Positions 39,497 through 61,198 of a stretch of 61,541 nt of DNA are shown here, in pieces. The translations under genes were made by a program, and so were the position numbers. This DNA comes from Alphaproteobacteria bacterium (lineage in GTDB: Bacteria; Pseudomonadota; Gammaproteobacteria; Burkholderiales; Burkholderiaceae_C). Below the pieces are notes generated by a model. It had not been told where the DNA came from and made no database searches. It was given only the letters and a program-made list of their open reading frames with translations. The stretch is from assembly GCA_030054175.1 (NCBI GenBank), contig JASGCM010000021.1, positions 1 through 61,541 of the forward strand, in the 5' to 3' direction. Each line of letters begins with the position of its first letter. The first letter of the stretch is position 1.

Positions 39497-40060
39497 ATGG
39501 ATCGCGGAGCAAGTCCGGCCTTCATCACGGAAATCCTCAAGAGCAGCAACCAGCCGGTCTACCTGATCGAGGCTTGGTTCGACGACGGGGCGATCCGCAT
39601 GACCGATGGCTGGATCAACATCGCCTGGAACGGCAACACCTACACCGCCAACGGCTACTACCTCGGGTTCTCGGGCTTGTCGGAAACCAACGACATGACC
39701 ATCCCCAACGTCACGGTGCAGGTCTCGGCGGTGGACCAGACCTGGATCGCCATTGCGCTGTCCAAACCCTACATCGACCGCCGGATCACCATCTACAAGG
39801 CATTCCTGGATTACACGATGGCGGTGGTCAGCAACCCGCTGCTGATCTTCGACGGGCGCATCGACGCGATGGAGATCAGCGACGACCCGACCCATGGCAC
39901 GTGCACGATCGCCGTGACCGCCAGCTCGCAGTGGGTGGATTTTCAACGCACGCCTGGTCGGCACACCAATGACCAGGAAGAGCAGATCTGGTACCCCGGT
40001 GACCGAGGCTTCCAGTTCGTCACCAACATCAACCAGCAAATCAAGTGGGGAGCCGCGTGA
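39497..40060 (+). CDS. Minor tail protein (gpL-like/DUF2163-like)
   Basis: A 187-residue protein (ITEILKSSNQPVYLIEAWFD, NGNTYTANGYYLGFSGLSET) with a late Trp-rich end (EEQIWYPGDRGFQFV), consistent with the tail-hub protein encoded before the tip genes. ATG 39497 follows GAGAGGTG. It overlaps the next gene at its stop. Confidence 0.75.
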   Translation: MDRGASPAFITEILKSSNQPVYLIEAWFDDGAIRMTDGWINIAWNGNTYTANGYYLGFSGLSETNDMTIPNVTVQVSAVDQTWIAIALSKPYIDRRITIYKAFLDYTMAVVSNPLLIFDGRIDAMEISDDPTHGTCTIAVTASSQWVDFQRTPGRHTNDQEEQIWYPGDRGFQFVTNINQQIKWGAA

Positions 40061-40551
40061 ACGCAACAACCAATCGCAGCGGCTATGCCTTCGCCCGTGT
40101 GCCCATTGCACGCGTGGTCACCCAGTTGCAGGCGCTGGCCATGCGCGAATACGACGAGGTGGGCCAGAAGGATCTGGACCGGCTGTGCGTCGACTGGGGT
40201 CGCTACCGTGAACTGGACGAGGCCGGCAAATTGGCCACGTTCATCGCCAAGAAGGGTGAGCAAATAGTGGGATACGCCGTTTTCATCGTGCAGACCCACA
40301 TCCATTACTCGGATGCTCTGGTCGCGGCCAACAGCGCGATTTACATCGCGCCCGAAGCCCGTGCGGGCCGGGTGGTGCTGAACCTGCTTCGCTTTGCCGA
40401 AGCCGGATTGCAGGCCCAGGGCGTGCGCAAGGTCTACTACCACGTCAAGCGGGAGAAGGACTTTGGCCGCCTGCTGGAGCGCATTGGCTACCGTGACAGC
40501 GAGCGCATGTTCGCCAAGGTCATCGGCTCTGTGGGTGGCGAGGTAGTCTGA
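40057..40551 (+). CDS. GNAT-fold acetyltransferase-like protein in the tail-tip cluster
   Basis: A roughly 164-residue protein with FIAKKGEQIVGYAVFIVQ, IYIAPEARAGRVVLNLLRFA and VRKVYYHVKREKDFGRLLER, which matches the order of GNAT strands and the acetyl-CoA-binding loop (PEARAGR in the R-x-x-G-x-G/A position). I chose GTG 40057, which overlaps the upstream stop; GTG 40045 is possible. In lambda-like tails this slot holds a tip peptidase (gpK). A GNAT here could acetylate a tail or receptor component, or be structural. Confidence 0.65.
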   Translation: MNATTNRSGYAFARVPIARVVTQLQALAMREYDEVGQKDLDRLCVDWGRYRELDEAGKLATFIAKKGEQIVGYAVFIVQTHIHYSDALVAANSAIYIAPEARAGRVVLNLLRFAEAGLQAQGVRKVYYHVKREKDFGRLLERIGYRDSERMFAKVIGSVGGEVV

Positions 40552-43500
40552 TGGCTGGAGTCATCATTGGCGCCATCGTCGGCTCGGCCGTGTCCGAGGC
40601 CGTGGGGGCGGTGGTTGCAGACGCAGTGCTGGGCACAGTCATCGAATCCGGCATCGTGGCCGGCGCCGCCGATGTGCTCGGGGCCTCCATTGCGACTGCC
40701 AATTTCATCGGTGGCGCTGCTGGCCTGGTGGCGGGTGGGCTGGCCAATGTTGCCACCCAGTCCGTCCTGGGCTCCTTGTCGCCTTCACGGGCGCAGTCTT
40801 CGGTCGCTTCGGCCCAGGCCCAGGGCATACTGATCAATTCCCAGAGCAACGTCGACCCCATCCCGGTCATCTATGGCCGGCGCCGGGTGGGTGGCACACG
40901 CATCTTCATTGAGGTGTCGGGCACCAGCAACGAATACCTGCACCTGATCATCGTGCTGGGCGAAGGGCCGGTGGCGGCGATCGACAACGTCTATTTGAAC
41001 GACGTCCTCTCCACTGACCCCAAGTTCAACGGGCTGGTGACCATCAACAAGCACCTGGGATTCCCGGGCGATGCCGCCGACGCGACCCTCATGGCGGCGG
41101 TGTCCAAATGGACCAGTGCCTGCACGCTTTCGGGTCTGGCCTATCTGTACGTCCAGCTCAAGTACGACAGCAATGCCTTCTCGGGTTTGCCCACCATCAC
41201 GGCCGATGTGCGTGGCCGCACCCTGTACGACCCGCGCGACGCTGGTACCCGGTACGCGAACAACCCGGCGCTGGTCATTCGGGATTACTTGACCAACACC
41301 CTGTACGGCCGGGGCATTGCCGCGACCAGCATCGACGATACGAGCATCGTGGCGGCTGCCAATGCCTGCGATGCTCGCCTGGCTGCACCGGCTTATTCGG
41401 ATTCGTTCTCGGTGGATCCAGCCACCGATGTGCTGACCTTCGCCCAGCCCGAGCCCATCGACACGGGCGACGGGGTGAAGATCTCATCGTCCATCACGCT
41501 GCCCACGCCACTCGTGGCGGGTACCACCTACTACGCTATCAAGGTCACGGACACGACCTACAAACTCGCGACATCGGTGGCCAATGCATTTGCGGGCAGC
41601 GCCATGGACATAACCTCGGCCGGGTCCGGCACCCTGACGCTGACCCAGGCCGATTACGCGACCTATGCCATCGATGGCGCGATCGACACCAACCAGACCG
41701 CCTACGACAACATCCGGGCCTTGCTCACGGCCTGCAGGGGCATGCTGGTGTTCAGCGCTGGCAAGTACCGTCTGGTGCTGGATCAGGTGGCCACTCCGGG
41801 CAGCTTTGGCTTCACCGAGAACAACATCACCGGGTCCTGGGTGATCACGCAAGCCGGCAAGCGCACCAAGTTCAATCGGGTCACCGCCGGTTTCTACAAC
41901 CCGGCCAAGAAGTGGCAGCCCGATCTGGCCATGGTGGAGTCCACGCCGCTGCGCGCAGTGGACAACGGCCTGCTGCTGGAAGCCAAGATCGACCTGCCGT
42001 TCTCGGCCAACGTGTATCGGGCACAGAACATCGCTCAGCAGACCCTGAACCAAAGCCGCTACGGTTTGATTGCCAAGTTCTCCGCCTTTCAGGAAGGCCT
42101 GCGCTGCGAGGTCGGGGATGTCGTGCCGATCACGCACTCCACTCCAGGCTGGAACGGCAAGCTGTTCCGCATCCTGCAGATCGAGTTGAAGGACACCGAT
42201 GAGGTGTCCATCGTGGCCCAGGAGTACGACCCAAGCGTCTACACCCTGGCCAATCTGGCGCCGGCCTCCATCGTCTCGCGCTCGAACCTGCCCGATCCCT
42301 TCACGGTGCCGGTCATTGCCGGACTGGTGCTGACCACGGGCACCACCGAGCTTCTGCGGTTGGGGGACGGCTCGATCATCTCGCGCATCAAGGCCAGCTG
42401 GACGGCACCCTCGGATGCATTCGCCCAGAAGGGCAGTGTGGAGGTGCAGTACAAGAAGTCGGCCGATACGACCTGGTCGCCCGGTGATGTGGTGGCAGCA
42501 GACCTTACCGCCACCTGGATTGCCCCGGTGCAGGACGGGGTCAGCTACGACGTGCGCGTGCGCTCGATCAACACCATGGGCGTGCGCGGCCAGTGGGTGC
42601 AGGCTACGGCCACCGTCATTGGCAAGACCGCGCCACCGTCGGATGTGGCTTCTGCCACCGCGAACGTTTTGCTGGACGGCATCCTGCTGTCCTGGGGCGC
42701 CGTCAGTGATGCCGATCTGGCGCAGTACGAGGTTCGCACCGGTGGTACCAGTTGGGCGACCGCCACCTTGCTGGCCACTGCCAAGACCACCCAGCTGAAG
42801 ATGCCCATGTCGACGGGCGGCACCTATGTCTGGCGCATCAAGGCGCTGGATACCAGCGGCAACTACTCGACCAATGCGGCGACCGCTACGGTAACGGTGG
42901 TTGCAGCCAGCGCACCGGTCGTCAAGCAGACCTTCCTGGGCGACAGCGTGGTCCTGTCCTGGGCGGCTGTCGCGGGAAGCTTTGCCACCGACCATTACGA
43001 CATTCGCACGGGCGGCACGTCGTGGGCGACGGCCACCCCGCTGGCCAGTGTCAGTACCACCCTGTACTCCGAGCGGGCCGTCTGGTCTGGTACCAAGAAA
43101 TACTGGGTGGCTGCAGTCGATGCGTTCGGCAACGTCGGGCCGGCCGCACTGGTCACGGCCAGCATCACCTCGGCGCCTGCGCCAACAATCACCCAGCAGG
43201 TGATCGACAACACGGTGCTGTTGTACTGGAACCAGACCAGCGGCTCACTGCCCACGGCCACTTTTGAGATCCGTCGCGGTGCGACCTGGGCAACCGCCAC
43301 CCTGATCGGGGCCAAGTCGGGCGGGTTCACGACCATCATGGAAACGGTGGCCGGCACCTACACCTACTGGATCTGTGCCATCGACACGGCCGGCAACTAT
43401 GGGACCCCGGGGTCTGTGGCGGCCACTGTCAGTGCGCCGCCGGACTATGTGCTCAAAGCGAACTACGCCACCACCTTCAACGGCACGCGCTCCTCAATGG

Positions 43501-44156
43501 CGCCCGACATCGATGGCGGCTGGGTGATGCCAGTCAACGCAGTAGAGACGATCGCCACGCACTTCAGCAGCCGCAGCTGGAGCACGCCGCAGGATCAGGT
43601 GACAGCCAGTTTCCCGCTGTTCATCCAGCCGAACCAGACACCCGCCTATTACGAGGAGGTGATCGATTACGGCTCGGTGCTAGCGGGCTGCAAGATCACG
43701 GTGACGGCCAATGGCCTGGCGGTGGTCGGCACGCCGACGATCGCCTGTGACATCTGGACCAGCATTGATGGGGTCACGTACACCATCAACGCGGGCGTCT
43801 GGCAGGTCTATTCCACGAACTTCCGGTTCGTAAAGTACCGCCTGACCGTGCAGGCCACAGACTCGACCAGCCTCTACAAGCTCTCGGGCGCCAACGTCCG
43901 CCTGGACGTGAAGCTCAAGAACGATGGCGGCACGGTGGCCTGCAATGCCGGGGATATAAACGGCACGACCGCGAATTTCGTGGTCCCGTTCATCAGTGTC
44001 ACCAGCATCACGCTCACGCCTTCGGGCACGACACCGCTGACGGCGGTCTACAACTTTTCAGGAGCTGCGAACCCCACGGGTTTCAGCGTTTTCCTGTTCA
44101 ACAGTGCCGGACAGCGCGTCTCCGGCAACGTGTCCTGGTCGGCCAAAGGCTACTGA
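40551..44156 (+). CDS. Tail tip/host-specificity protein (gpJ-like)
   Basis: A 1201-residue tip protein. Residues 1-75 form a Gly/Ala-rich hydrophobic segment like lambda gpI, apparently fused here. Residues 90-580 are the gpJ core (IPVIYGRRRVGGTRIFIEVS, ALVIRDYLTNTLYGRGI, VARVIQAGKRTKFNRVTAG-like region). Residues 650-970 hold three fibronectin-III-like repeats with the recurring motif GGTSWATAT. The C-terminal 200 residues are beta-rich. It anchors the fibre to the tail tip and contacts the host. Confidence 0.9.
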   Translation: MAGVIIGAIVGSAVSEAVGAVVADAVLGTVIESGIVAGAADVLGASIATANFIGGAAGLVAGGLANVATQSVLGSLSPSRAQSSVASAQAQGILINSQSNVDPIPVIYGRRRVGGTRIFIEVSGTSNEYLHLIIVLGEGPVAAIDNVYLNDVLSTDPKFNGLVTINKHLGFPGDAADATLMAAVSKWTSACTLSGLAYLYVQLKYDSNAFSGLPTITADVRGRTLYDPRDAGTRYANNPALVIRDYLTNTLYGRGIAATSIDDTSIVAAANACDARLAAPAYSDSFSVDPATDVLTFAQPEPIDTGDGVKISSSITLPTPLVAGTTYYAIKVTDTTYKLATSVANAFAGSAMDITSAGSGTLTLTQADYATYAIDGAIDTNQTAYDNIRALLTACRGMLVFSAGKYRLVLDQVATPGSFGFTENNITGSWVITQAGKRTKFNRVTAGFYNPAKKWQPDLAMVESTPLRAVDNGLLLEAKIDLPFSANVYRAQNIAQQTLNQSRYGLIAKFSAFQEGLRCEVGDVVPITHSTPGWNGKLFRILQIELKDTDEVSIVAQEYDPSVYTLANLAPASIVSRSNLPDPFTVPVIAGLVLTTGTTELLRLGDGSIISRIKASWTAPSDAFAQKGSVEVQYKKSADTTWSPGDVVAADLTATWIAPVQDGVSYDVRVRSINTMGVRGQWVQATATVIGKTAPPSDVASATANVLLDGILLSWGAVSDADLAQYEVRTGGTSWATATLLATAKTTQLKMPMSTGGTYVWRIKALDTSGNYSTNAATATVTVVAASAPVVKQTFLGDSVVLSWAAVAGSFATDHYDIRTGGTSWATATPLASVSTTLYSERAVWSGTKKYWVAAVDAFGNVGPAALVTASITSAPAPTITQQVIDNTVLLYWNQTSGSLPTATFEIRRGATWATATLIGAKSGGFTTIMETVAGTYTYWICAIDTAGNYGTPGSVAATVSAPPDYVLKANYATTFNGTRSSMAPDIDGGWVMPVNAVETIATHFSSRSWSTPQDQVTASFPLFIQPNQTPAYYEEVIDYGSVLAGCKITVTANGLAVVGTPTIACDIWTSIDGVTYTINAGVWQVYSTNFRFVKYRLTVQATDSTSLYKLSGANVRLDVKLKNDGGTVACNAGDINGTTANFVVPFISVTSITLTPSGTTPLTAVYNFSGAANPTGFSVFLFNSAGQRVSGNVSWSAKGY

Positions 44157-44192: not shown

Positions 44193-45281
44193 ATGGCAGA
44201 CTGGTCAAAGCCAGGGCTGACGGATACCTACGCCAATTTTCTGAGCTACCTGGCTGCTCGGGATACGGATCTGGCCGCAGGGCTGGATCCTGCCAAGGTC
44301 ACTGTCACCAACCCGCCGGCCAACGCCATCCGCTGGAACTCGGCGAATGGCTACTGGGAATATTGGAACGGTACGGCCTGGGGCGCCTTGGCCGCCACCT
44401 ACAACATCGTCGCGGCACAGGCCAACAAGCTCAAGACGCCGGTGGCCATCGCGCTGTCGGGCGACATCTCGGGCAGTGCCAACTTCGATGGCAGCGCGGG
44501 GATCTCGATTGCCGCAACGTTGCCGAACGTGAACGCCAACGCGGGCACCGCTGGCAACGCGACCACGGTGCCGGTCATCACGACCAACGCCAAGGGTCAG
44601 GTCACAGCAGTCACGCCCACAGCGATCAGTTTTCCGGCTGTGCCGGTGACCTCGGTCTTTGGGCGCACCGGTGCCGTCGCATTGACCTCGACCGATGTGA
44701 CGGGTGCTCTGGGCTTTACCCCCTACAACGCCACCAGTGCAACGGGCAAGCTCGACAAGACGGGTGGCACCATGACCGGCAGCATCACCATGTCCAGCGG
44801 TGCGCTCATCTACTCCAGCCAGGCGGGCTCGGCCGATAACGCCCGCAACACGGGCTACAAGATGAACGACGGCCAGGACATCGGTGAGATGGGTCGCAGC
44901 AACCAGTACTACGACGACCTGGCAGCCAACTGCAATGGTTATCTCCCAACCGGAAACTGCGCCAGCAACGCCTACTGGACTCCGCCCAATCTGAACTGGT
45001 GGACCTGGGGTTTGGGTTTCAACTACTGCGCCAACAGTGCTCAGTACGACGGTGCGGGTGGAACAACCTATGCCTACAACGCCGTGCCTTCCTCCGGGCT
45101 GAACTACGACGGGTACTACCTGGCTCAGGATGAGATTGGTGGAGGCGAATACCACCGCTGGTACCGGGCGTGCAATTGCAATTGCAACTGCGGCAGCTAC
45201 ACCAACTGCAACTGTGGAGCGACGGCCTTCAACTGCCGCACGAACTGCAATTGCAACTGCGCCTGCTGCGGCTGCTGCTGA
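44193..45281 (+). CDS. Tail-fibre-like protein with a 14-cysteine C-terminal tail
   Basis: A 362-residue fibre-type protein. Residues 45-80 contain NGYWEYWNGTAWG, residues 85-185 are fibre repeats (NAKGQVTAVTPT, TGALGFTPYN), and KLDKTGGTMTGSITMSSGA near 190 is a common fibre shaft motif. Residues 240-326 are Tyr/Asn/Trp/Gly-rich. Residues 327-362 are extraordinary: 36 residues with 14 Cys and 9 Asn, starting CNCNCNCGSYTNCNC and ending NCNCNCACCGCC. Ribosome binding site GGAGGA precedes ATG 44193. Three oxygenases and a radical SAM enzyme follow in the same transcript, so this tail is the probable substrate. Confidence 0.88.
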   Translation: MADWSKPGLTDTYANFLSYLAARDTDLAAGLDPAKVTVTNPPANAIRWNSANGYWEYWNGTAWGALAATYNIVAAQANKLKTPVAIALSGDISGSANFDGSAGISIAATLPNVNANAGTAGNATTVPVITTNAKGQVTAVTPTAISFPAVPVTSVFGRTGAVALTSTDVTGALGFTPYNATSATGKLDKTGGTMTGSITMSSGALIYSSQAGSADNARNTGYKMNDGQDIGEMGRSNQYYDDLAANCNGYLPTGNCASNAYWTPPNLNWWTWGLGFNYCANSAQYDGAGGTTYAYNAVPSSGLNYDGYYLAQDEIGGGEYHRWYRACNCNCNCGSYTNCNCGATAFNCRTNCNCNCACCGCC

Positions 45282-45290
45282 GGTGACGTC

Positions 45291-46097
45291 ATGAAAGTGT
45301 TCCTTGTTCGTGCCGGAAAACTGTCCACTGCGCTGGACTATGGCATTCACATCAAGGTCGACAAAACAGCAGAGCGGGTCCTCATGCGGTTTGGTCTGCG
45401 CCATCGGCCAGACAGCGGCAATGATCCGGACTTCTTTGTTGGCGATGTGTCATACCAGGTGATTTCCCAGCAGAGCTTCAACTACCGGGAACTCAAGCTC
45501 ACCCGGGGTTGGTCTGACCGGCAGACGTTCATGACAGGCTATCGATGGGCAGAAAAACGGCTCATCGACCCCATGCCGCTGTACGTCTACACGCTGTCCA
45601 CACGATTTACTGCCCCCGAGGCCTCTGGCCATGTCTGGAACGGCAATTTCCTGACAGGCTTCAATGTTCCGTTTGCCGATAGCTCATTTGAAGAGTGCTT
45701 CGTCACGGTGAACCTGCACCCGACCCTTGGGGGGTGTCTGGTGGAGGGAGTGGATCCTGAGGATGTGGAACAGACCGACTACCAGTCCTCCGCTCAAGTA
45801 CGCGAGATGCAATTCCCTGACTTGAAGGTCATTGCGCCGGCCAGCGTGACCGCAGGGGATCAGGCGGTATTTACCGTGCAAATGCTTGACGGTCTGGGCG
45901 ACGCCAGCACTCGAGATGCTGAGTTGTACCTCGAGTCCGTAAATGGCTACCTGCCGGTCACACGACGCCGGACGCTGGGGGGAACTGCTACTGCCGCAAT
46001 CATCACGACAGGCCTGCAACCCGGAGATACCGTGCGCCTGAAGGCAGGCTTCAAGTTCTATCCCGGCTGCGCCGATGCTCAGGTGACCCTCACATGA
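45291..46097 (+). CDS. Unknown protein with C-terminal Ig-like domain
   Basis: A 268-residue protein I do not recognise. Residues 1-180 are mixed, with few cysteines and many aromatic residues (FFVGDVSYQVISQQSFNYRE). Residues 182-268 look like a bacterial Ig-like beta sandwich (APASVTAGDQAVFTVQMLDG, GLQPGDTVRLKAGFKF). It starts nine bases after the Cys-rich fibre and overlaps the first oxygenase by four bases. It could be a fibre partner that presents or folds the Cys tail, a fibre-tip subunit, or part of the modification complex. Confidence 0.75.
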   Translation: MKVFLVRAGKLSTALDYGIHIKVDKTAERVLMRFGLRHRPDSGNDPDFFVGDVSYQVISQQSFNYRELKLTRGWSDRQTFMTGYRWAEKRLIDPMPLYVYTLSTRFTAPEASGHVWNGNFLTGFNVPFADSSFEECFVTVNLHPTLGGCLVEGVDPEDVEQTDYQSSAQVREMQFPDLKVIAPASVTAGDQAVFTVQMLDGLGDASTRDAELYLESVNGYLPVTRRRTLGGTATAAIITTGLQPGDTVRLKAGFKFYPGCADAQVTLT

Positions 46098-46693
46098 TCC
46101 GCGAACTGTTTTCAGCGCGGATCTACCAAGATCTCCTGATCTTCGAAGATGGCCTGCGCGATCAGATGCGCCAGACGGCGCTGGATTTCCACCAGCGGCT
46201 CAATCGGGATGGGCAACCTTGGGCGCGCAAAAGCCGACAGTCGCTAATCAACCCTGAAGGCGGGTGTGATGTGTTCAGACCACTGGTTGATCTGGTGCGA
46301 GAGGCTATCCGGAAAGCCTACCAGTGTGAACCGGTCTGGCAAACCGCCCGGGAGGTCATCACGCTTCCTGGTCAGTTCATTCCGCTTCACGCCGAGGACA
46401 CGGATCTCTCGGCGGTCTATTGGGTGGACGGGGATGCGCGGCCCGATCCCTCACAGCAGGACTATTCCGGCGCATTTGTGCTGGTCAATCCCAGTGGCGC
46501 TTACGGTAGCCGCAAATTGCCATGGGAGGGCTGGCGCTCGGAAATCATCCATCCCCGTCCGGGACTGTTGGTGATTTTTCCGAGCTACCTGGCTCACCAC
46601 TCCCATCCCTACAACGGTACCCGACCGAGTGTGGAGATCCATTTTGAGTTTCGGGTTCAGGCATTGGAGGGACAAACCCATGCAAATCATTGA
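46094..46693 (+). CDS. 2OG-Fe(II) oxygenase-like protein (first of three)
   Basis: A 199-residue protein with the outline of phage-type 2-oxoglutarate oxygenases. GQFIPLHAEDTDLSAVYWV carries the first metal ligands (H99 with E101 or D102), RPGLLVIFPSYLAHHSH the distal His (H168/H169), and RPSVEIHFEF an Arg (R177) placed to bind 2-oxoglutarate. The family hydroxylates or desaturates side chains. The ligand pair HxE/HxxD is slightly unusual. Overlaps on both sides tie it to the fibre operon. Confidence 0.75.
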   Translation: MIRELFSARIYQDLLIFEDGLRDQMRQTALDFHQRLNRDGQPWARKSRQSLINPEGGCDVFRPLVDLVREAIRKAYQCEPVWQTAREVITLPGQFIPLHAEDTDLSAVYWVDGDARPDPSQQDYSGAFVLVNPSGAYGSRKLPWEGWRSEIIHPRPGLLVIFPSYLAHHSHPYNGTRPSVEIHFEFRVQALEGQTHANH

Positions 46694-47258
46694 CGGGTTG
46701 ATCGAGCCTGACTTGGCAGACCATTGCAGGCAATGGCTGTTGAGCCAAAACCTGGTCTTTGGCTGGAAGGCGCACACCAATGCGCCCGGCGTCTTTTGGC
46801 ATCGCAACTTCGTGCTGCCTGGCACGCACAACCATCACTACGACCCGGGCGCATGGCAGCCGGAATGCACTTTTGATGCGTTTGTGGCCCATGGGGGTCC
46901 TCTGGCACTTGTCGCCATGCGAGTCAAAGAGCGCTTCTTCCCGCAGGCTGAGATCACACGCCTGTGGGTCAATGTGCAGGCATTCGGAGATGAGGCTTCG
47001 CTGCACAGGGACTTTCCGCCAGAGTTTCGGGATACGGCCAGATCCGTGATCTGGTACCCCGTAGCCGAGTGGCATCCGGACTGGGGAGGGGATTTCGTGC
47101 TGTTGAACGATCTGGGTGAGATCGAGGCAGCTGCACTGGTCAAACCCAATCGGATAGTGCAGATCAATGGTTGCCTGAACCACGCCGCTCGGCCGATTTC
47201 CCGCTACTGCAATGCCTTGCGCATCGCGGTGGCGTTTGGTGCGGAGGTGGCCGAATGA
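46680..47258 (+). CDS. 2OG-Fe(II) oxygenase (second of three)
   Basis: A 192-residue protein with a clean facial triad: H109-x-D111 in LHRDFPPEF, distal H168 in CLNHAARPIS, and R181 in LRIAVAF for the 2-oxoglutarate carboxylate. ATG 46680 has GGAGG ten bases upstream and lies 14 bases inside the previous gene. It is the most canonical of the three and the easiest to test biochemically. Known relatives hydroxylate Pro, Asn, Asp or Lys. Confidence 0.82.
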   Translation: MQIIDGLIEPDLADHCRQWLLSQNLVFGWKAHTNAPGVFWHRNFVLPGTHNHHYDPGAWQPECTFDAFVAHGGPLALVAMRVKERFFPQAEITRLWVNVQAFGDEASLHRDFPPEFRDTARSVIWYPVAEWHPDWGGDFVLLNDLGEIEAAALVKPNRIVQINGCLNHAARPISRYCNALRIAVAFGAEVAE

Positions 47259-47938
47259 TTGATTACTTGTGGCCCACCCCCGTCCTGTATGACAGCGCGC
47301 CATGGAGCGAAGCTGAGATTGAGGAATTGAGACAGTTCACGGTGGATCGGTTTCATGCTCACAAGACGTGTCCGCCAGTCCATGGATTGCCGGATGTGGA
47401 CGTTAAGCTCCGAGTGCAGTTGAACCTGTTTCACGAACATCACGAGGTTCATGCACCAGATGTCTGGATCAGGTTTAAGCAGTGGGTCGATAGCGTCTAT
47501 CGAAAGTACCTGCTTGAAGCTCATGGGGTTCGAAACGTCCACGACCTCAAGTTGCAGGCTAGGTGCATTCCCGTGCGATATCTACCTGGCATGCGAGCGC
47601 AGCCGCATTACCACCACACCTGTGACCATGTTCTGTGCCTGTATCTGGACTGCGGGCGTGGTCGAAGTCCACCAGATCAGCGCGACTGGACCGTAGGTGA
47701 CGGTGAACTCATCCTTCAGGACCCCCGCCCAATGGCGGGGTTTCCATTTTGGGAAAAGCTTAGATACATCGAGACCTTCCCGGGGCTCGTTGTGTTGCAC
47801 CCATCGCGTGTCTGGCACGAAACCAATCCATTCAACGCTCAAGGCGAGCGAACCCTGCTGGTGGTGACCCTGCGGGTCATGTCCCACAACTACTGCGAGC
47901 TCTACACAGACCTCGGAGGGAGTGCTCTATGCCCCTGA
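47255..47938 (+). CDS. 2OG-Fe(II) oxygenase-like protein (third of three)
   Basis: A 227-residue protein. RAQPHYHHTCDHVLCLYL contains the likely first ligands (H118/H120/H121 and D124) but in a non-standard spacing. RVWHETNPF gives distal H188 and GERTLLVVTLRV gives R199. The N-terminus (LWPTPVLYDSAPWSEAEIEE) resembles that of putative phage 2OG oxygenases. It may be a divergent oxygenase or use an altered metal site. It overlaps the gene on each side. Confidence 0.7.
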   Translation: MIDYLWPTPVLYDSAPWSEAEIEELRQFTVDRFHAHKTCPPVHGLPDVDVKLRVQLNLFHEHHEVHAPDVWIRFKQWVDSVYRKYLLEAHGVRNVHDLKLQARCIPVRYLPGMRAQPHYHHTCDHVLCLYLDCGRGRSPPDQRDWTVGDGELILQDPRPMAGFPFWEKLRYIETFPGLVVLHPSRVWHETNPFNAQGERTLLVVTLRVMSHNYCELYTDLGGSALCP

Positions 47939-48138
47939 ACCTTCAAACCCGACCAGGGTATGCCGTCGAAGTGATCCAGGTCGATCAGTCCAATTTACTC
48001 ATGACCGTTCTGGTCACCAATCCGGATGGCAAGCCATCCGGTCGTCACATTTTCAACCTCAAGACGCTGCCCGGAGCCGATCAGGCTCGGGTGTGCCGCG
48101 AGGCGTACCCCATTGCATTCGAGGAGCCTGCACCATGA
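47929..48138 (+). CDS. Small protein between oxygenase and radical SAM genes
   Basis: A 69-residue protein (GYAVEVIQVDQSNLLMTVLV, SGRHIFNLKTLPGADQARVC) of unknown family. It has GGAGG ten bases upstream, overlaps the preceding gene by 10 bases and the radical SAM start by 4. Small proteins next to RiPP maturases often act as peptide-recognition or chaperone units; I do not see PqqD/RRE hallmarks strong enough to claim that here. Confidence 0.65.
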   Translation: MPLNLQTRPGYAVEVIQVDQSNLLMTVLVTNPDGKPSGRHIFNLKTLPGADQARVCREAYPIAFEEPAP

Positions 48139-49556
48139 AATTCACCCTGACTCTCAACGGCCAACGCGGCTTCGTGCGGGAGGCCGTCTATGACCCGGAG
48201 GATTCATCGCTCGTCTGGAAAGACAGTGGGGAACCCTTGCCGCTGCCGGCGGCCTTTCCCCGCCAATCGGATATGCAGTGGAGCCCGTTCTGGCACATCC
48301 ACCACCCCAGCAACTCGGCCGGAAAATCAACTGCAATCCGGCACCTGAAGTTGCAGCTGGGACTGAAGTGCAACTATTCCTGCCAGTACTGCTCGCAGGC
48401 TCACCAGCCGCATGACATCGACGGCCACCCGGGTGATGTAGAGCCTTTCATGACGCAACTGGCCGACTGGTTCGCCGGTGGGGACGACGGACATGGGGCC
48501 GGTGTGAAGATTGAATTCTGGGGTGGCGAGCCCTTTGTCTACTGGAAGCTGCTCAAACCTCTGGGTGAGGCGGTCAAGGAAAAGTACCCGAACGCTCAGT
48601 TGTCAATCGTGACCAACGGCTCCCTGTTCGATGATGAAAAGCTGTCGTGGGTTGAGGCCCTGGATATTGGCATCGGCCTGTCCCACGACGGACCTGCCCA
48701 GCAGTTCCGGGGACCCGATCCGCTGGACGATCCCGTCTGCCTGGCGCAGATCAAACGCTGGGTTGCCCGGCGCATGACGATTAACCGCATGAGCTTCAAC
48801 ACGGTGCTGCATCGGCATAACCAGTCGTTGAAAGCCGTGCGCAGCTACTTCTCGGAAAAGCTGGATCTGCCAGCTCAGGCCATCGTGCTGGCCACGGAAG
48901 AAGTGATGTTGCCCTATGACCAGGGTGGCATGTCGCTGTCCTTGCTGGGCCAAGATCGATCGCGCTACCTGCACCAGGTGTTTTGGGAGCTTGCCACCGG
49001 CTCTGCCATGGCCGTTGGCACGATGCGGGACAAGGTCGATGAGTTCATGCGTGCCCAGGCACAGTCCCGACCGCTGGCCGCACTCGGGCAGAAATGCGGC
49101 ATGGACCGGGACGACTCGATCGCAGTGGACATGAAGGGCAACGTGGTGACTTGCCAGAACATGAGTGCCTCGACACATCACAAGATCGGGCACGTTGATC
49201 AGTTCGACGAAATCCAGCTCAACACGGCCTATCACTTCAGCACCCGCAGCGAATGCCCGCGTTGCCCAGTGGTTCAACTGTGCAAGGGCGCCTGCCTCTT
49301 TTTGGAGGACGAGTTCTGGGCGGCAGCATGTGACAACGCCTTCGCTCACAACCTGGCCGTGCTGGCAGCGGCGCTGTACTACCAGACGCAGGGGCTGATC
49401 CTCACCCGCATTGAGGGTGAGGCCATTCGCCGCGATGGCGTCACGGTGCTCGATGTCATCAACCTTGATTTCGTCGAAAGCAACGGCGACATGAGCACGG
49501 TCGCACCGCCGATCCGTCAGCACAAGCCATTTCCTGTCCAGGTCGTCTCGGCCTGA
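48135..49556 (+). CDS. Radical SAM/SPASM enzyme, candidate fibre maturase
   Basis: A 473-residue enzyme. KCNYSCQYC (C79, C83, C86) is the CX3CX2C motif that binds the SAM-cleaving 4Fe-4S cluster, and WGGEPF near residue 129 is the SAM-binding GGE motif. The C-terminus matches SPASM exactly: C321-X13-G-X4-C340, then C374-X2-C377-X5-C383-X3-C387, and C399, binding two more clusters. SPASM enzymes such as the sactipeptide and ranthipeptide maturases act on ribosomal peptides, often forming Cys thioethers. It ends the operon that begins with the Cys-rich fibre. Confidence 0.92.
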   Translation: MKFTLTLNGQRGFVREAVYDPEDSSLVWKDSGEPLPLPAAFPRQSDMQWSPFWHIHHPSNSAGKSTAIRHLKLQLGLKCNYSCQYCSQAHQPHDIDGHPGDVEPFMTQLADWFAGGDDGHGAGVKIEFWGGEPFVYWKLLKPLGEAVKEKYPNAQLSIVTNGSLFDDEKLSWVEALDIGIGLSHDGPAQQFRGPDPLDDPVCLAQIKRWVARRMTINRMSFNTVLHRHNQSLKAVRSYFSEKLDLPAQAIVLATEEVMLPYDQGGMSLSLLGQDRSRYLHQVFWELATGSAMAVGTMRDKVDEFMRAQAQSRPLAALGQKCGMDRDDSIAVDMKGNVVTCQNMSASTHHKIGHVDQFDEIQLNTAYHFSTRSECPRCPVVQLCKGACLFLEDEFWAAACDNAFAHNLAVLAAALYYQTQGLILTRIEGEAIRRDGVTVLDVINLDFVESNGDMSTVAPPIRQHKPFPVQVVSA

Positions 49557-50387: not shown

Positions 50388-50854
50388 TCGCGGTTCCGCA
50401 GGCGGCCGTCGATCTGGCGAAGCGGTTCGAGGGATTCCAGCGCGTGGCGAAATCCGACCCGGGCAGTGCGCAGCCATACATCTGCCCAGCCGGGTTCTGG
50501 ACCATTGGGTATGGCCATCTCTGCGCACCGACACATCCGCCGATCACGGAAGCCGAGGGCGAGGCTTATCTGGCGAGCGACCTGCAAACCGCGCTGGTCG
50601 CGACGTTGCGCTACTGCCCAGCGCTGGCCACCGAGACAGAGGGTCGGCTCGCCGCCATCGTGGACTTCACATTCAACTTGGGGGCAGGGCGTCTGCAGAC
50701 ATCAACGCTTCGACGACGGGTGAACCAGCGAGACTGGGGCGCTGCTGGGCATGAACTGCGCCGATGGGTCTATGGCGGTGGGAAAGTGCTACCCGGATTG
50801 ATCATCAGACGGGTAGCAGAGTCAGCATTGCTATTCGAAGGGGTGATCAATTAG
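50384..50854 (+). CDS. Endolysin, GH24 lysozyme
   Basis: A 156-residue T4-lysozyme-type muramidase: catalytic Glu in KRFEGFQRV, TIGYGHLCAP as the active-site strand, and FTFNLGAGRLQTSTLRRRVN typical of GH24. There is no signal peptide or SAR anchor, so it depends on the holin. It starts at GTG 50384. Its end overlaps by eight bases the convergent minus-strand gene, marking the switch to accessory DNA. Confidence 0.92.
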   Translation: MIAVPQAAVDLAKRFEGFQRVAKSDPGSAQPYICPAGFWTIGYGHLCAPTHPPITEAEGEAYLASDLQTALVATLRYCPALATETEGRLAAIVDFTFNLGAGRLQTSTLRRRVNQRDWGAAGHELRRWVYGGGKVLPGLIIRRVAESALLFEGVIN

Positions 50855-51845
50855 CCGTCAGGTAGCCTAGTGTTCTGTAACCAAGTGCGTTTCGCTTGGT
50901 ATTTCCAGGGTTTCTGGATTCGGCATACGCGTCGTTCTCAACATACACGTCCATTTGATTACCATTGATATCAAGAACGACGTTTCCAGCCTGATTATTC
51001 GTGATCTTATCGAGTCCGCGCCGATTCCACGCATCATATGCCAAGTGTTCGGAATTGGCGACGCCAAAGAGAGTGAGTCGTGGTTTCAATATGTCCAAAA
51101 ATTCCCAAGATCGGCCCGAATCCCGTCCGTGATGTGGTGCAATGAGAATGTCGCAGTCCGCGACATCGGCAGCGTGGTTTTCCAAAATGTGCTCCCAAGT
51201 CGCATCATGGGAGTCGCCCGAGAATATGAGCTTAAATCCGCCTGTACGATAGAGGATCACGTATGAACAATCGTTGAAATCTTCACTCGTATTGGCGTCA
51301 TTGACTAAACTCTGGGTAGGAGCAATGATCTTCAAACCATCTCCGCCTCCCCCGTTATCGTCCTCGTTGGCATATTTAAATATCTTGCCTGCGAGAACCT
51401 TAAGGGTTGTGATTCCCGGTTCCTTGTCGTCGCGCACATTCGCATACCGATCCCAGTCCTCTTCTCTGTAGCCGTTGTACCCGGCGAAGTCCGGCTTAGG
51501 CTTGTTGGCACCGGAGTGCCAGAAGTTGTTGACCTTAATCTCGTCAAGCAAAGCGTTAAAGCCATCCAAATGATCCATGTCCGGATGGGTCAGAATGAAA
51601 CGCCAGATTGATTGGATTCCCAACGCGGTCAAGTAGTTCTGCGGCCTCGTAGGATAGGCTTTCATGTTGAAGTTGCCGCCCGCATTTGAGCCCGCCAAGC
51701 CCGATGATTTTATGAGGCGGTTAGTCGACTCCTGTATCTCAGTCATGTTTCCACAGGAGATGTCGATCATACTGATACGGTCACTGTTGTGCTGAATAAC
51801 AATGCAGTCACCTTCCCCCACGTTAAGAAAATGAACCGTTGCCAT
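50847..51845 (-). CDS. Metallo-beta-lactamase-fold hydrolase, ComEC-like
   Basis: A 332-residue protein: VGEGDCIVIQ at the N-terminus, the metal motif LTHPDMDHLDG near residue 87, LIFSGDSHDATWE near 210 and APHHGRD near 238. This layout fits the ComEC/Rec2-type MBL group, which includes nucleases and cyclic-nucleotide-related enzymes. ATG 51845 is used (GTG 51848 is adjacent). By eye it is AT-richer than the phage genes. It lies 87 bases downstream of a second MBL protein and probably belongs to one cargo cassette. Confidence 0.8.
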   Translation of the reverse strand: MATVHFLNVGEGDCIVIQHNSDRISMIDISCGNMTEIQESTNRLIKSSGLAGSNAGGNFNMKAYPTRPQNYLTALGIQSIWRFILTHPDMDHLDGFNALLDEIKVNNFWHSGANKPKPDFAGYNGYREEDWDRYANVRDDKEPGITTLKVLAGKIFKYANEDDNGGGGDGLKIIAPTQSLVNDANTSEDFNDCSYVILYRTGGFKLIFSGDSHDATWEHILENHAADVADCDILIAPHHGRDSGRSWEFLDILKPRLTLFGVANSEHLAYDAWNRRGLDKITNNQAGNVVLDINGNQMDVYVENDAYAESRNPGNTKRNALGYRTLGYLTAN

Positions 51846-51932
51846 CACTCAATCTATCGCTTGTGAATTGATATTCGAGCAACGCGCTGCGCATTGATCG
51901 TAAGACCTTCCAGCTCTTTCGGTGATTCCATT

Positions 51933-52889
51933 TCAGCGAAGTCCTTTAAAGCCTGGTCGGTAGATATTTCTCAGTGTGTCGGCATTCATTGATAGCCAGT
52001 GACTTTTTCGTGTCACGAAATCTAGTTGTCTTGAAATTTTCGTTGAGTCGGCAATCAGATTCGTTGCACGAAACTTGTTCGAATGCGGGTGTAGCGAATG
52101 AATGAGCACGTCGCCCGTCTTGGTCGTCATGATCGGAATATCAAGATCAAAAAGTCTTTGACGAACCTCTGGCTTAGGATGTTCGAATTGATTGTCGAAC
52201 TGGCTCCCACAGATTGCAATTCTTGGCTGAATTACTTCAAAAAACTTTTTCGAATTAGTTGCGCAGTCCGCTCCGTGATGGGCCAGCAGTAGGACATCGA
52301 CCTCGCGCTTAAAAATCTTGCAGCGGCGAAGGTATGCGCCAATGTTGGCATCCTCGACATCACCCAGGCTGGCGACGTTGAAGCACCCCTGACGAAACAA
52401 CTTGACGGTCGAGTTGTTGTTTGATTCAGCGTCTTGTATGGCGCGAGGGTGGTACACAACATCTCGGTACGCTAGATCCTCGGCACTCTTTAGGCCCTTG
52501 ATGTACTCGGGGTTGACGGAGACGCACTTGACAGTGCGCCCCTTGTTCGCGTTCGTCGCCCGGTACTGTTGAATAAGCTTCAGGCAATCCTTCGCGGTGG
52601 CACTATGCGGCGGATATCCCGGGTACTCAATCGTCGCTGGCTTATAGCGCGAGAGTATTTCTTCGAGGTCAGCCGTTGCGCAATGGTCTTGATCCCATCC
52701 CGTGATGTGAAGGACGTCGATGGTAAATTTACCGCACTCCGCAAGTTCTCTGTCCAAATTGGGGCGACTCAGATCAGTCAACCTTGCTTCAATCAAGGTG
52801 AATGTGCTGTCTGCGAAATGAGAAAAGGAAGCGCCAGCCGTGCCAAGCTGATATGCGCGAAATCTCGTAACGATGGATCGGGCGGTCAT
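51933..52889 (-). CDS. Metallo-beta-lactamase-fold protein with altered metal motif
   Basis: A 318-residue protein starting at ATG 52889. ITGWDQDHCA near residue 66 occupies the HxHxDH position but has Gly where the first His is expected, so metal binding may be weakened or different. Later LLLAHHGADC matches the ComEC-type HHG motif. It overlaps the upstream chimeric membrane gene by four bases. Together with the 332-residue paralog it forms a tandem MBL pair. Confidence 0.7.
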   Translation of the reverse strand: MTARSIVTRFRAYQLGTAGASFSHFADSTFTLIEARLTDLSRPNLDRELAECGKFTIDVLHITGWDQDHCATADLEEILSRYKPATIEYPGYPPHSATAKDCLKLIQQYRATNANKGRTVKCVSVNPEYIKGLKSAEDLAYRDVVYHPRAIQDAESNNNSTVKLFRQGCFNVASLGDVEDANIGAYLRRCKIFKREVDVLLLAHHGADCATNSKKFFEVIQPRIAICGSQFDNQFEHPKPEVRQRLFDLDIPIMTTKTGDVLIHSLHPHSNKFRATNLIADSTKISRQLDFVTRKSHWLSMNADTLRNIYRPGFKGLR

Positions 52890-53914
52890 TTCTTTTTCCC
52901 CCCATCGTTGCTCGACTCCAGAGCTAAGACGTTTTGAACAAGTCGTATGCCTGTATTTCGAGCAGAGATAGCAAGCCAAAGGAATTGCAATGCCAATCCA
53001 CCGATAACCGTTGCCTGTGCGCCAAGTGGAATTCCAGATATTGTTGCTGCTATGCTGGAAATCACGAGGATCAGAAGCGTCAGGCTGGAAGAATCCCGAA
53101 ACAGAAGGAATCGCTTGTGCGAATCACTGACAATGACATTGGACTGATGCTTTTGGAACAACCGATACCAGCAGGTGTTTTGATCTCTCGCGCTCTGCGG
53201 AAACTCCCCAACTTTCTTCTTCAGAACCGCTATGTCGATCCGAGGATCAGCGTCGGCGTGCTCGCTGAACGCACGATGGCCAGGTAATGCATTTTTGAGA
53301 CGCCAGAATACGATTGAGGCTTTAATGTTGGATGACAGCAGGTCATTTAAGAAGACGGCAACAAGCGGGCCAGTGGAAGCCAGCAGTATCCCTCTGACGA
53401 ATGCCGACTGCGCCAGCTCCGCTACTGATGCTTGGGTATCCACTAACGCGAAGGGCACGATGACTCGCTCGGACTCGCCGCTGCTCATCGAGTGGTAGCG
53501 GATGGCAACTGGCCGCTTGGCGTGGATCGCCCGGCAGACCGGGGCCAGCACATCCATCTTCGGGTTGCTCAAGGCGGTGGGCGACTCGCACGGCAGCAGC
53601 GGCTGGGTTGCGCCGTTCACGCCATCGCCGAAACCCAGAGCAAGTGCCGATAGCACGCGCTGCGATGCGTGGTCGAACAGCGGGAAGAACGCCTGCCCGA
53701 TGCGGTAGATCTTGTTGCTGCCATCAAAGATGATGTTCTGCGGCGCGATTTCCCGGTACAGCGCCAAGTCGCGTGTCGCCCCTGCCGGTGCCATGCCGAA
53801 ACGGTCGATCAGGTCTGGGCGACCGATTTCACCGAAGAAGTAGAGCCGGAAGTCGATGTAGGCCAGCCGCTCGCGCTGGGCGTTACTTAGATTCTCGACG
53901 CGCTGGGCCTTCAT
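52886..53914 (-). CDS. Chimeric gene: BrxR/WYL regulator N-terminus fused to a membrane protein
   Basis: Residues 1-160 read like a BrxR/CapW-type regulator: a winged helix (DLIDRFGMAPAGATRDLALY, NIIFDGSNKIYRIGQAFFP) and the first strands of a WYL domain (RPVAIRYHSM, RVIVPFALVD). At VDT the WYL domain stops abruptly. Residues 165-342 are a membrane protein with three hydrophobic segments (around 172-192, 285-305 and 308-328) and a WRLKNALPGHRAF motif. Base composition also changes at the junction (about 53440), GC-rich before it and AT-rich after. I infer a deletion or recombination fusion. Confidence 0.6.
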   Translation of the reverse strand: MKAQRVENLSNAQRERLAYIDFRLYFFGEIGRPDLIDRFGMAPAGATRDLALYREIAPQNIIFDGSNKIYRIGQAFFPLFDHASQRVLSALALGFGDGVNGATQPLLPCESPTALSNPKMDVLAPVCRAIHAKRPVAIRYHSMSSGESERVIVPFALVDTQASVAELAQSAFVRGILLASTGPLVAVFLNDLLSSNIKASIVFWRLKNALPGHRAFSEHADADPRIDIAVLKKKVGEFPQSARDQNTCWYRLFQKHQSNVIVSDSHKRFLLFRDSSSLTLLILVISSIAATISGIPLGAQATVIGGLALQFLWLAISARNTGIRLVQNVLALESSNDGGKKK

Positions 53915-59819: not shown

Positions 59820-61198
59820 CAGGCCTCCATCTCCACGAGTTCGGCGCCGATCTCCCTCGGGGCGAATTCGCCGATCAGGGCGTCCCAGCCCAATTCCCGC
59901 CACTTGACCCTGATACCCTGCACCTCGCCGACGTGGACAAGGTCGATACGCTCGATCATGAGGTTGGCAATCCGGTGGCGCTCGACCGGGAACAGCTGAT
60001 CCCACACATCGTTCAGCCGGCCCATAGCCATCACCGTGGTGGCCTCGTCGACCTGCACGCCGGTGCGCTGGATGTGACGTACCACCGATGCAATCGATTC
60101 CGGGCTGGTCAGGACCGTGCGGATCTGCGCCACCACAGCTGCCTCGATCTCAGGCGCTGGCAAGCGCTCGTAGCCCTTGCCCGGAGCGCCGAACCGGCTC
60201 TCGGACTTGGACACGTAGTAGTGATACTTGCGCCCGTTCTTGCGCGAGTAGGTCGGGTACATGCGCTCGCCCGAGGGGGCATACAGCAGGCCCCGCAACA
60301 ATGCGTCGGTGCGCGACCTGATCTTGGTCTCCACCGAGCGCGCATGGCTATCGCGGGTCAATACCCTGTGAACCTTCTCCCAAAGGGCCGAATCGATGAT
60401 CGGCGGATGCGCACCCTGATACCAGCTTCCCTTGTGGGAAAGCTCGCCAAGGTAGATGCGGTTGCGCAGCAGCTTGTGGAGGTACTTCTTGTCGATGCGC
60501 GCGCCGCTGCGGGTCTGTCCCTCTTGCGTCGTCCACGCCTTCGTCGTGATTCCCTCGGCGGTCAGGTTGGCGGCGATCTGTGTCGGCGAGCCTATGGTCA
60601 GCATCTCCTCGAAGATGCGGCGCACGACCGCAGCCTCGCTCTCGTTGATGACCAGGAGCCGGTTGTCGACGTCATAGCCCAGAGGCGGAACGCCGCCCAT
60701 CCACATCCCCTTGCGCTTGGCAGCTGCAATCTTGTCTCGGATGCGCTCGCCGGTGACCTCGCGTTCGAACTGCGCGAAGGACAGCAACACGTTCAACATC
60801 AGCCGCCCCATCGAGGTCGCGGAGTTGATCTGCTGGGTGACCGCGCTGAAGCTCACTCCATGCTGGTCGAAGATCTCGACCATCTTGGCGAAGTCGGCGA
60901 GGCTGCGGGTAAGACGGTCGATTTTGTAGACCACGACGATGTCGATCTGGCCGCGATCGATGTCCGCCATCAGTCGCTTGAGTCCAGGCCGATCGGTGTT
61001 CCCGCCTGAGTATCCGGGGTCGTCGTAATCGTCGGCCACCGGGATCCAGCCCTCGGTCCGCTGGCTTGCGATGTAAGCCTGGCCCGCCTCCTTCTGAGCA
61101 TCGATGGAGTTGAACTCCTGGTCGAGTCGTTCGTCGGAAGACACCCGGCAGTAGACGGCGCAGCGTTTGCGGCTGCGATTTGCGGCAATCTCGTTCAT
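59819..61198 (-). CDS. Large serine recombinase (second copy)
   Basis: A 459-residue recombinase closely related to that at 9229: YCRVSSDERLDQEFNSIDAQ (nucleophile Ser near residue 19), YKIDRLTRSLADF, SFAQFEREVTGERIRDK, MGGVPPLGYDV and NRIYLGELSHKG. The C-terminal DNA-binding part differs more, so the two likely use different att sites. It overlaps DUF2924 by four bases. Confidence 0.9.
   Translation of the reverse strand: MNEIAANRSRKRCAVYCRVSSDERLDQEFNSIDAQKEAGQAYIASQRTEGWIPVADDYDDPGYSGGNTDRPGLKRLMADIDRGQIDIVVVYKIDRLTRSLADFAKMVEIFDQHGVSFSAVTQQINSATSMGRLMLNVLLSFAQFEREVTGERIRDKIAAAKRKGMWMGGVPPLGYDVDNRLLVINESEAAVVRRIFEEMLTIGSPTQIAANLTAEGITTKAWTTQEGQTRSGARIDKKYLHKLLRNRIYLGELSHKGSWYQGAHPPIIDSALWEKVHRVLTRDSHARSVETKIRSRTDALLRGLLYAPSGERMYPTYSRKNGRKYHYYVSKSESRFGAPGKGYERLPAPEIEAAVVAQIRTVLTSPESIASVVRHIQRTGVQVDEATTVMAMGRLNDVWDQLFPVERHRIANLMIERIDLVHVGEVQGIRVKWRELGWDALIGEFAPREIGAELVEMEA

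Follow-up and report, generated by a model that had tools for sequence, protein, structure and literature searches.

Among the described maturases that combine a radical S-adenosylmethionine (SAM) core with a SPASM domain, CteB (PDB 5WGG/5WHY) forms thioethers on a short peptide with a leader, and PapB joins Cys to Asp-type residues by thioether links at a CX3D spacing. QhpD, the maturase of quinohemoprotein amine dehydrogenase, is the nearest precedent for a protein-sized substrate, as it introduces thioether links within a protein subunit, not a small peptide; this subunit belongs to a cellular enzyme and has no repeat tail. Precursors of ribosomally synthesized and post-translationally modified peptides (RiPPs) are short and consist of an N-terminal leader and a C-terminal core. 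Here we analyzed a stretch of 61,541 nucleotides (contig JASGCM010000021.1 of assembly GCA_030054175.1, hereafter the window), in which seven packed genes (44193-49556, + strand) lie between a J-like tail-tip gene and the lysis genes. The first gene encodes a fibre-like protein with a Cys-rich C-terminal tail, and the last a radical SAM/SPASM enzyme, the predicted maturase of this tail. The enzyme shares 19% identity with CteB, and its predicted substrate, unlike that of CteB, is the C-terminus of a virion-type protein. PapB-type ranthipeptide maturases differ from the window system in spacing and substrate, and the 362-aa carrier of the tail falls outside the leader-core type of RiPP precursor.

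Among phages, the enzyme belongs to phrog_1802, a radical SAM family of the category 'other' to which no substrate or function is assigned. A search of 50,697 phage records returned near-full-length matches to the enzyme only in JWF (two records) and 2-1, both phages of Achromobacter xylosoxidans, at 26-46% identity; other phage records matched only partly or weakly. The record of phage 2-1 names phrog_1802 and the JWF protein within it. Radical SAM genes in phages are treated in PMC7029224 and PMC10783043, whose passages on them contain no such tails, and phage JWF, the subject of PMC9959647 and PMC3899368, is temperate and can be induced again by UV (PMC3899368). In the open literature, covered by titles and the starts of abstracts and with preprints outside, we found no paper on these tails or their enzyme, in line with the remark of the initial annotation, which knew of no described counterpart. 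Because the leader-core precursor does not apply and no like phage system was found, we regard the tail-enzyme system as new as a category, its chemistry being probably of known type. The features at the core of the system are the following.

44193-45281, + strand: fibre-like protein of 362 aa, carrier of the tail, with PHROGs matches, directly after gene J
45171-45278, + strand: C-terminal Cys tail, the last 36 residues with 14 Cys by sequence and count, mainly Asn-Cys repeats
48135-49556, + strand: radical SAM/SPASM enzyme of 473 aa, predicted tail maturase, phrog_1802

The 14 Cys of the final 36 residues compare with 3 in the other 326 residues of the carrier, an enrichment with a binomial chance of about 1e-19 at the Cys rate of the body. 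The enzyme contains the cluster motif CX3CX2C (CNYSCQYC at residue 79) and an exact seven-Cys SPASM pattern, CX9-15GX4C...CX2CX5CX3C...C, at residues 321-399. Both had been read from the letters before; the regular expression and a 52-row alignment, in which all ten motif Cys are invariant, agree with that reading. The SPASM model TIGR04085 scored 38.3 bits, above its cut-off of 27, and PF13186 scored 12.5 bits, below its cut-off of 21.5. The match to phrog_1802 reached 180 bits over residues 62-425, PHROGs having no curated cut-off. In comparisons of the predicted structure, CteB, ChlB, anSME and TigE ranked above viperin by Z score, and the structural alignment with CteB begins at residue 1. 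The motifs and the predicted fold are thus those of peptide-modifying SPASM enzymes. The models of the individual maturases stayed below their cut-offs: SCIFF/CteB TIGR03974 at 42 bits (cut-off 425), QhpD TIGR03906 at 53.6 bits (cut-off 453) and the PapB model NF047865, the second-best NCBIfam match of the enzyme, at 63 bits (cut-off 340). Homologues numbered 1292 at E<=0.001, among which other radical SAM families may be included.

The co-occurrence of tail and enzyme was assessed from both sides. In an enzyme-blind scan, viral contigs were searched for (AAYTGY)4, encoding (Asn-Cys)4, with no use of the enzyme, which yielded at least 120 stretches; an enzyme match was a profile hit at E<=1e-5, the numbers refer to stretches (many of these are related), and all hold among the matches listed. 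The tract NCNCNCNC lay within the last 30 residues of an open reading frame (ORF) of at least 60 aa in 91 cases. An enzyme was encoded 38-5443 nt downstream on the same strand in 75 of these 91, and all 16 tails without an enzyme had less than 4 kb of downstream sequence. Where at least 4 kb were available, the enzyme was present in 54/54; these loci comprise 36 carrier clusters, and the lowest of their best enzyme scores was 93 bits. As controls served tracts in other positions. An enzyme accompanied 0/16 tracts in short ORFs and 3/13 tracts internal to an ORF (L054, L152 and L107). The internal tract is followed by another domain in L054 and by a Hint-type domain in L152, and in L107 the enzyme match is weak and on the opposite strand.

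For the reverse search, loci were selected by the enzyme from viral contigs, named phages and bacterial genomes (79 of the 112 enzyme relatives on genome contigs were taken in), and the tail, a run of Cys each preceded by a residue X (XC units), was then sought. With at least 6 kb of upstream sequence required and without dereplication, 82 loci were counted, 61 of which also have at least 6 kb downstream. An XC tail was found upstream on the same strand in 68/82. The other positions gave far fewer, with 7 upstream on the opposite strand and, downstream, 4 on the same and 3 on the opposite strand. Four of the 14 exceptions (L031, L032, L033, L036) carry an XC run outside the criterion, in L031 within a small ORF adjoining the enzyme. 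No tail was seen in L239, where genes resembling those of the window's lysis region come after the enzyme, in L281, another exception, the enzyme lies in a shortened frame, and eight further exceptions are without a tail (L234, L265, L283, L287-L290, L292). We scanned the neighbours of four tail-less loci, L234, L265 and L287 plus L311 from outside the 14, and found RiPP-type genes in three of them: a C39-peptidase ABC transporter with HlyD in L234 (5572-9876), a PqqD-like protein adjoining the enzyme in L265 (11350-11649) and a YcaO-nitroreductase protein in L287 (7260-9671). The neighbours of L311 gave only a second, sub-threshold radical SAM match. When loci were chosen by gene J and 8 kb or more of downstream sequence was required, 11/12 contained both tail and enzyme and 1/12 contained neither.

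Across numerous phages and prophages, tail and enzyme hence occur together on one strand, the tail usually lying upstream. The initial annotation had suggested a search of phage and prophage databases for the joint conservation of Cys-rich tail, SPASM enzyme and 2-oxoglutarate (2OG) oxygenase. The pair of tail and enzyme recurs widely, the relatives of the enzyme are not found mostly away from Cys-rich tails, as the 68/82 loci show, and the oxygenase is optional. After dereplication, 101 tails were found with 116 enzymes; 16/198 rows with short flanks had been dropped, along with near-copies and rows of fewer than 300 aligned residues or less than 200 bits, and since this set includes loci picked for their tail, 101/116 is not usable as a rate. 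The 101 loci form the one set used below for oxygenases, carrier grouping and Asn share.

The 3.1-Mb genome to which the window belongs (G000) has five enzyme loci, one of them shortened (the copy on contig C23). The pattern (AAYTGY)3 occurs in it at five sites, each an in-frame C-terminal tail near one enzyme locus, and the reversed pattern is absent from the 3.1 Mb. The resulting pairs are one-to-one and lie on contigs C11, C17 (two), C23 and C30; they need not all share one cell, because the contamination figure of the genome is 4.9%. Within the order, 250 genomes were surveyed; 7 have the enzyme (E<=1e-30), 15 the pattern and four both. The stretches fetched from the 11 pattern-only genomes, in two repeat-rich ones covering the sites in part, were free of the enzyme and, L324 and L326 excepted, had no tract close to the C-terminus of an ORF of 60 aa or longer; the two exceptions are perfect repeats that border a run of N or the end of a contig. 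The enzyme-only genomes G035, G080 and G154 showed no tail in the stretch examined. G110 has two tandem carriers in which another domain comes after the run, and the same stretch contains five enzyme-like ORFs.

Among 131 distinct tails of at least 4 units, X is Asn in 74.7%, Ala in 8.9% and Asp in 8.4% of units, and in some units Lys or Arg. The longest tail has 11 units, and 67/131 tails terminate exactly at the last one. The carrier bodies have a median Cys content of 1.1% (101 bodies), and carriers that neighbour an enzyme are between about 65 and more than 700 aa long. When 21 carriers were scanned singly against PHROGs, 10 matched tail-fibre families (those of the window, L077, L086, L136, L091, L043, L044, L021, L160 and JWF). 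A PHROGs scan of 40 carriers gave families matched by 4-5 members each, mostly tail families, and Pfam returned Collagen (4), Hom_end_hint (3), CBM_5_12 (3) and Peptidase_S74 (2) among 40 carriers. The 110 residues before the tail fall into 16 blastp groups when the threshold is E<1e-5 and into 12 when it is E<1e-3 (101 loci). Enzymes that are 65-86% identical pair with carriers of different groups, which have no detectable similarity beside the tail. By sequence comparison, the tail is a portable C-terminal element on differing carrier bodies. Two stronger statements were tried and dropped: that all carriers are mutually unrelated (with the tail removed, single linkage merges 88/116 bodies) and that all are fibres (apart from the carrier of the window, 20 were scanned singly, of which 9 hit tail-fibre families and 11 hit no PHROGs family at all).

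Small carriers form a group of their own. L049, L055, L088 and L112 encode 67-79 aa proteins whose C-terminal sequence is DDY(S/G)T(A/N)C(NC)n. Each stretch has 1-4 radical SAM ORFs, and these proteins may represent a peptide-sized version of the substrate; the L049 carrier had no match among cultivated phages. In L083, L098, L105, L137 and L154, two or more small carriers adjoin one another, their bodies differing and their kind of tail being the same, as if the phage held a tip set in store.

Some carriers continue past the run. In JWF, a Hint domain (PF05203, 47.5 bits, cut-off 32.1) directly follows the run NCNCDCNCNC of the fibre AXJ13_gp028, and L152, L230, L232 and L295 resemble this arrangement with Hint matches below the cut-off. 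In L125, L032 and L036, the run ends at a WSD motif before a Peptidase_S74 domain (PF13884, above cut-off), the self-cleaving C-terminal chaperone domain that these three carriers share with Peptidase_S74 fibres. L032, L033 and L036 have about 25 XC units, mostly Lys-Cys, before the Peptidase_S74 domain. The definition of the Peptidase_S74 family presumably includes neither an XC run between body and chaperone nor a linked radical SAM enzyme. Hint and Peptidase_S74 families are known for self-cleavage, which, if it occurs here, would bring the run to the mature C-terminal end whichever of the three arrangements a carrier has.

Between carrier and enzyme, the window encodes five further proteins; they are listed together with the preceding gene.

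40551-44156: J-like tail-tip gene, phrog_31, 308 bits
45291-46097, + strand: 268-aa protein with a C-terminal Ig-like domain, a possible virion partner, by AlphaFold2 (AF2), Foldseek and VIA-align
46094-46693, + strand: 2OG-Fe(II) oxygenase 1, PF13759 and phrog_81, HAE at residue 99
46680-47258, + strand: 2OG-Fe(II) oxygenase 2, weak PF13640, FlmC-like, HRD at residue 109
47255-47938, + strand: 2OG-Fe(II) oxygenase 3, PF13759 just under cut-off, phrog_81
47929-48138, + strand: 69-aa protein, no family above cut-off, present in close relatives of the window

The spacing across the seven genes is +9, -4, -14, -4, -10 and -4 nt, and the recomputed coordinates reproduce the order and packing first reported, with gaps of at most 9 nt or overlaps; the 268-aa gene had received no special mention there. 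The three oxygenase calls are sound and of uneven strength: PF13759 reached 30.1 on oxygenase 1 and 26.5 on oxygenase 3 (cut-off 27), and the matches of oxygenase 2 are all sub-threshold (PF13640 20.8 against 27; FlmC model 41.7 against 240). At least one oxygenase lies between tail and enzyme in 49/101 loci, so that three of them as a fixed part of the system, as first proposed, did not hold up. Same-strand oxygenases number 65 in the 176 kb between tail and enzyme versus 13 in 1394 kb elsewhere; they are clearly associated with the pair and are optional, accessory members. The proposed hydroxylation of tail Asn finds no support, because the Asn share of the tails does not follow oxygenase presence (0.763 with oxygenase, n=49, versus 0.706 without, n=52; P = 0.52). 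Tails are shorter with an oxygenase (4.7 versus 6.7 units, P = 0.007, kinship ignored). For the 268-aa protein, the AF2 model has a predicted local distance difference test (pLDDT) score of 87.5, and Foldseek and VIA-align place the Ig-like domain at residues 175-268; residues 1-174 are barely covered among the VIA-align matches, which is no evidence of a new fold. Plain homology gives a family of 29 proteins, the count used here, because an iterated profile (104 loci) drifted and took in ORFs in overlapping frames; a role as universal third part was dropped on this ground. The 69-aa protein was found by profile in 28 loci, partly including overlapping stretches.

The enzyme-blind and the enzyme-selected search agree, which makes it very probable that the radical SAM/SPASM enzyme takes the tail as its substrate. 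We regard it as probable that the enzyme is a RiPP-like maturase which cross-links an interchangeable C-terminal Cys tag, likely that of the tail fibre. Of the proposal that the fibre tip is a protein-sized RiPP-like substrate, the substrate part is well supported, the Asn hydroxylation is not. Most likely, the enzyme would join Cys sulfurs to nearby carbons as thioether cross-links, giving a multiply cross-linked, thiol-poor tip. With the XC spacing of two, every Cys of an extended strand would point to the same side, and the reaction would depend on Cys plus a feature common to any X. The finished tip may be stiffened or armed for contact with the host surface. Optional 2OG oxygenases may add further modifications to the carrier or its partner, and a Hint-type or Peptidase_S74 domain behind the run would cut itself off. 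A more general version, which we put forward tentatively, is a maturation tag of tailed phages at large: an (XC)n run on any fibre or tip protein would become a SPASM-made polycyclic thioether needle, with the Hint or Peptidase_S74 cap shed only after finishing.

Several observations weigh against this picture. X can be Asn, Asp, Ala, Lys or Arg, so a reaction tied to one side chain cannot be general. The thioether chemistry is itself a prediction, and position is what suggests host contact by the tip. The enzyme scores far below the cut-offs of the NCBIfam maturases among its best 25 families, neither it nor the 69-aa protein matches the PqqD-like RiPP recognition element (PF05402) at E<=1, and a classical leader is absent. 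In ten of the 82 enzyme-selected loci no XC run was found at all. As to the carriers, 11 of the 21 that were scanned one by one hit no PHROGs family, and eight of the 11 are shorter than 140 aa; the best PHROGs match of the window's own is the head decoration family phrog_3018 (46 bits), ahead of four tail-fibre families (26-32 bits); its Pfam scan gave no match. The initial annotation was exact in its 36-residue, 14-Cys C-terminus, and its 'fibre' label is fair but not certain, being favored because the gene sits right after gene J.

The Cys run might instead be an unmodified metal- or disulfide-binding tip, like the CXC runs of metallothioneins, with the enzyme acting elsewhere. A density of 14 Cys per 36 residues would suit such a role, as would an extended strand with its Cys aligned on a single side, the arrangement of metal-binding fibre tips. 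We consider it unlikely, given that the enzyme tracks the tail across carriers without detectable similarity, that three of the four tail-less relatives scanned adjoin RiPP-type genes and that no other constant substrate was seen. Rather unlikely, too, is an assembly tag, in which the enzyme would join two carriers to each other or attach the carrier to another virion protein such as the 268-aa Ig-domain protein. The gene of the latter lies directly downstream of the carrier, its Ig-like domain also matches a phage neck protein, and tails sit on interchangeable bodies, several per locus in some cases; against this, the 268-aa family comprises only the 29 proteins found by plain homology.

Two further explanations concern the enzyme and the run separately. 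Viperin-like profiles do match the enzyme (pVip, 53.5 bits; NF038283, 51.5 bits, cut-off 180), as would be expected of an unrelated moron in the tail module, be it a viperin-like defence or a metabolic gene. The full SPASM domain, the structural ranking of CteB, ChlB, anSME and TigE above viperin and the linkage to the tail make this very improbable. Perfect AACTGC arrays without an enzyme do exist in some genomes, which would fit Asn-Cys runs being hexanucleotide microsatellites without meaning at the protein level. This is refuted for the tails counted here, as 119/131 mix synonymous codons and 67 stop at the last unit, and the pattern-only genomes, L324 and L326 apart, lack near-C-terminal tracts in the stretches fetched; we give the idea next to no credence.

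The window covers part of a phage-like genome, in which genes for terminase, portal, head protease, major head protein, tape measure and integrase are present; the integrase makes it probable that the phage is temperate. The integrase (59822-61198, - strand) matches phrog_95 (365 bits) and also a DNA invertase family, and is for the latter reason probably of the serine type. Between the tape measure and gene J, where a tail assembly gene is usual, an ORF at 40045-40548 (+ strand) matches the acetyltransferase family phrog_1249 (49 bits). Directly beyond the lysis genes, three genes lie on the - strand (50850-51848, 51936-52979 and 52886-53914); PDC-M48B, a candidate defence family, is matched by two of them (140 and 24 bits), and the remaining one gave a weak WYL match (25 bits). 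The trio is a possible defence moron.

If the maturase reading is true, phages finish a virion protein by carbon-centred radical chemistry, which was not found for any virus in the literature searched. It suggests a substrate for a large group of radical SAM enzymes, the 1292 homologues above, among which other families may be included, and gives a hint of what some of the 2OG oxygenases in phages might act on. The enzymes may also be natural catalysts that cross-link any protein ending in a short tag. The reading is open to direct test on the cultivated Achromobacter phages JWF and 2-1. Should the tag prove general among tailed phages, RiPP chemistry would have passed from peptides that are secreted into the architecture of virions, and sister enzymes in cells would still be part of RiPP clusters.

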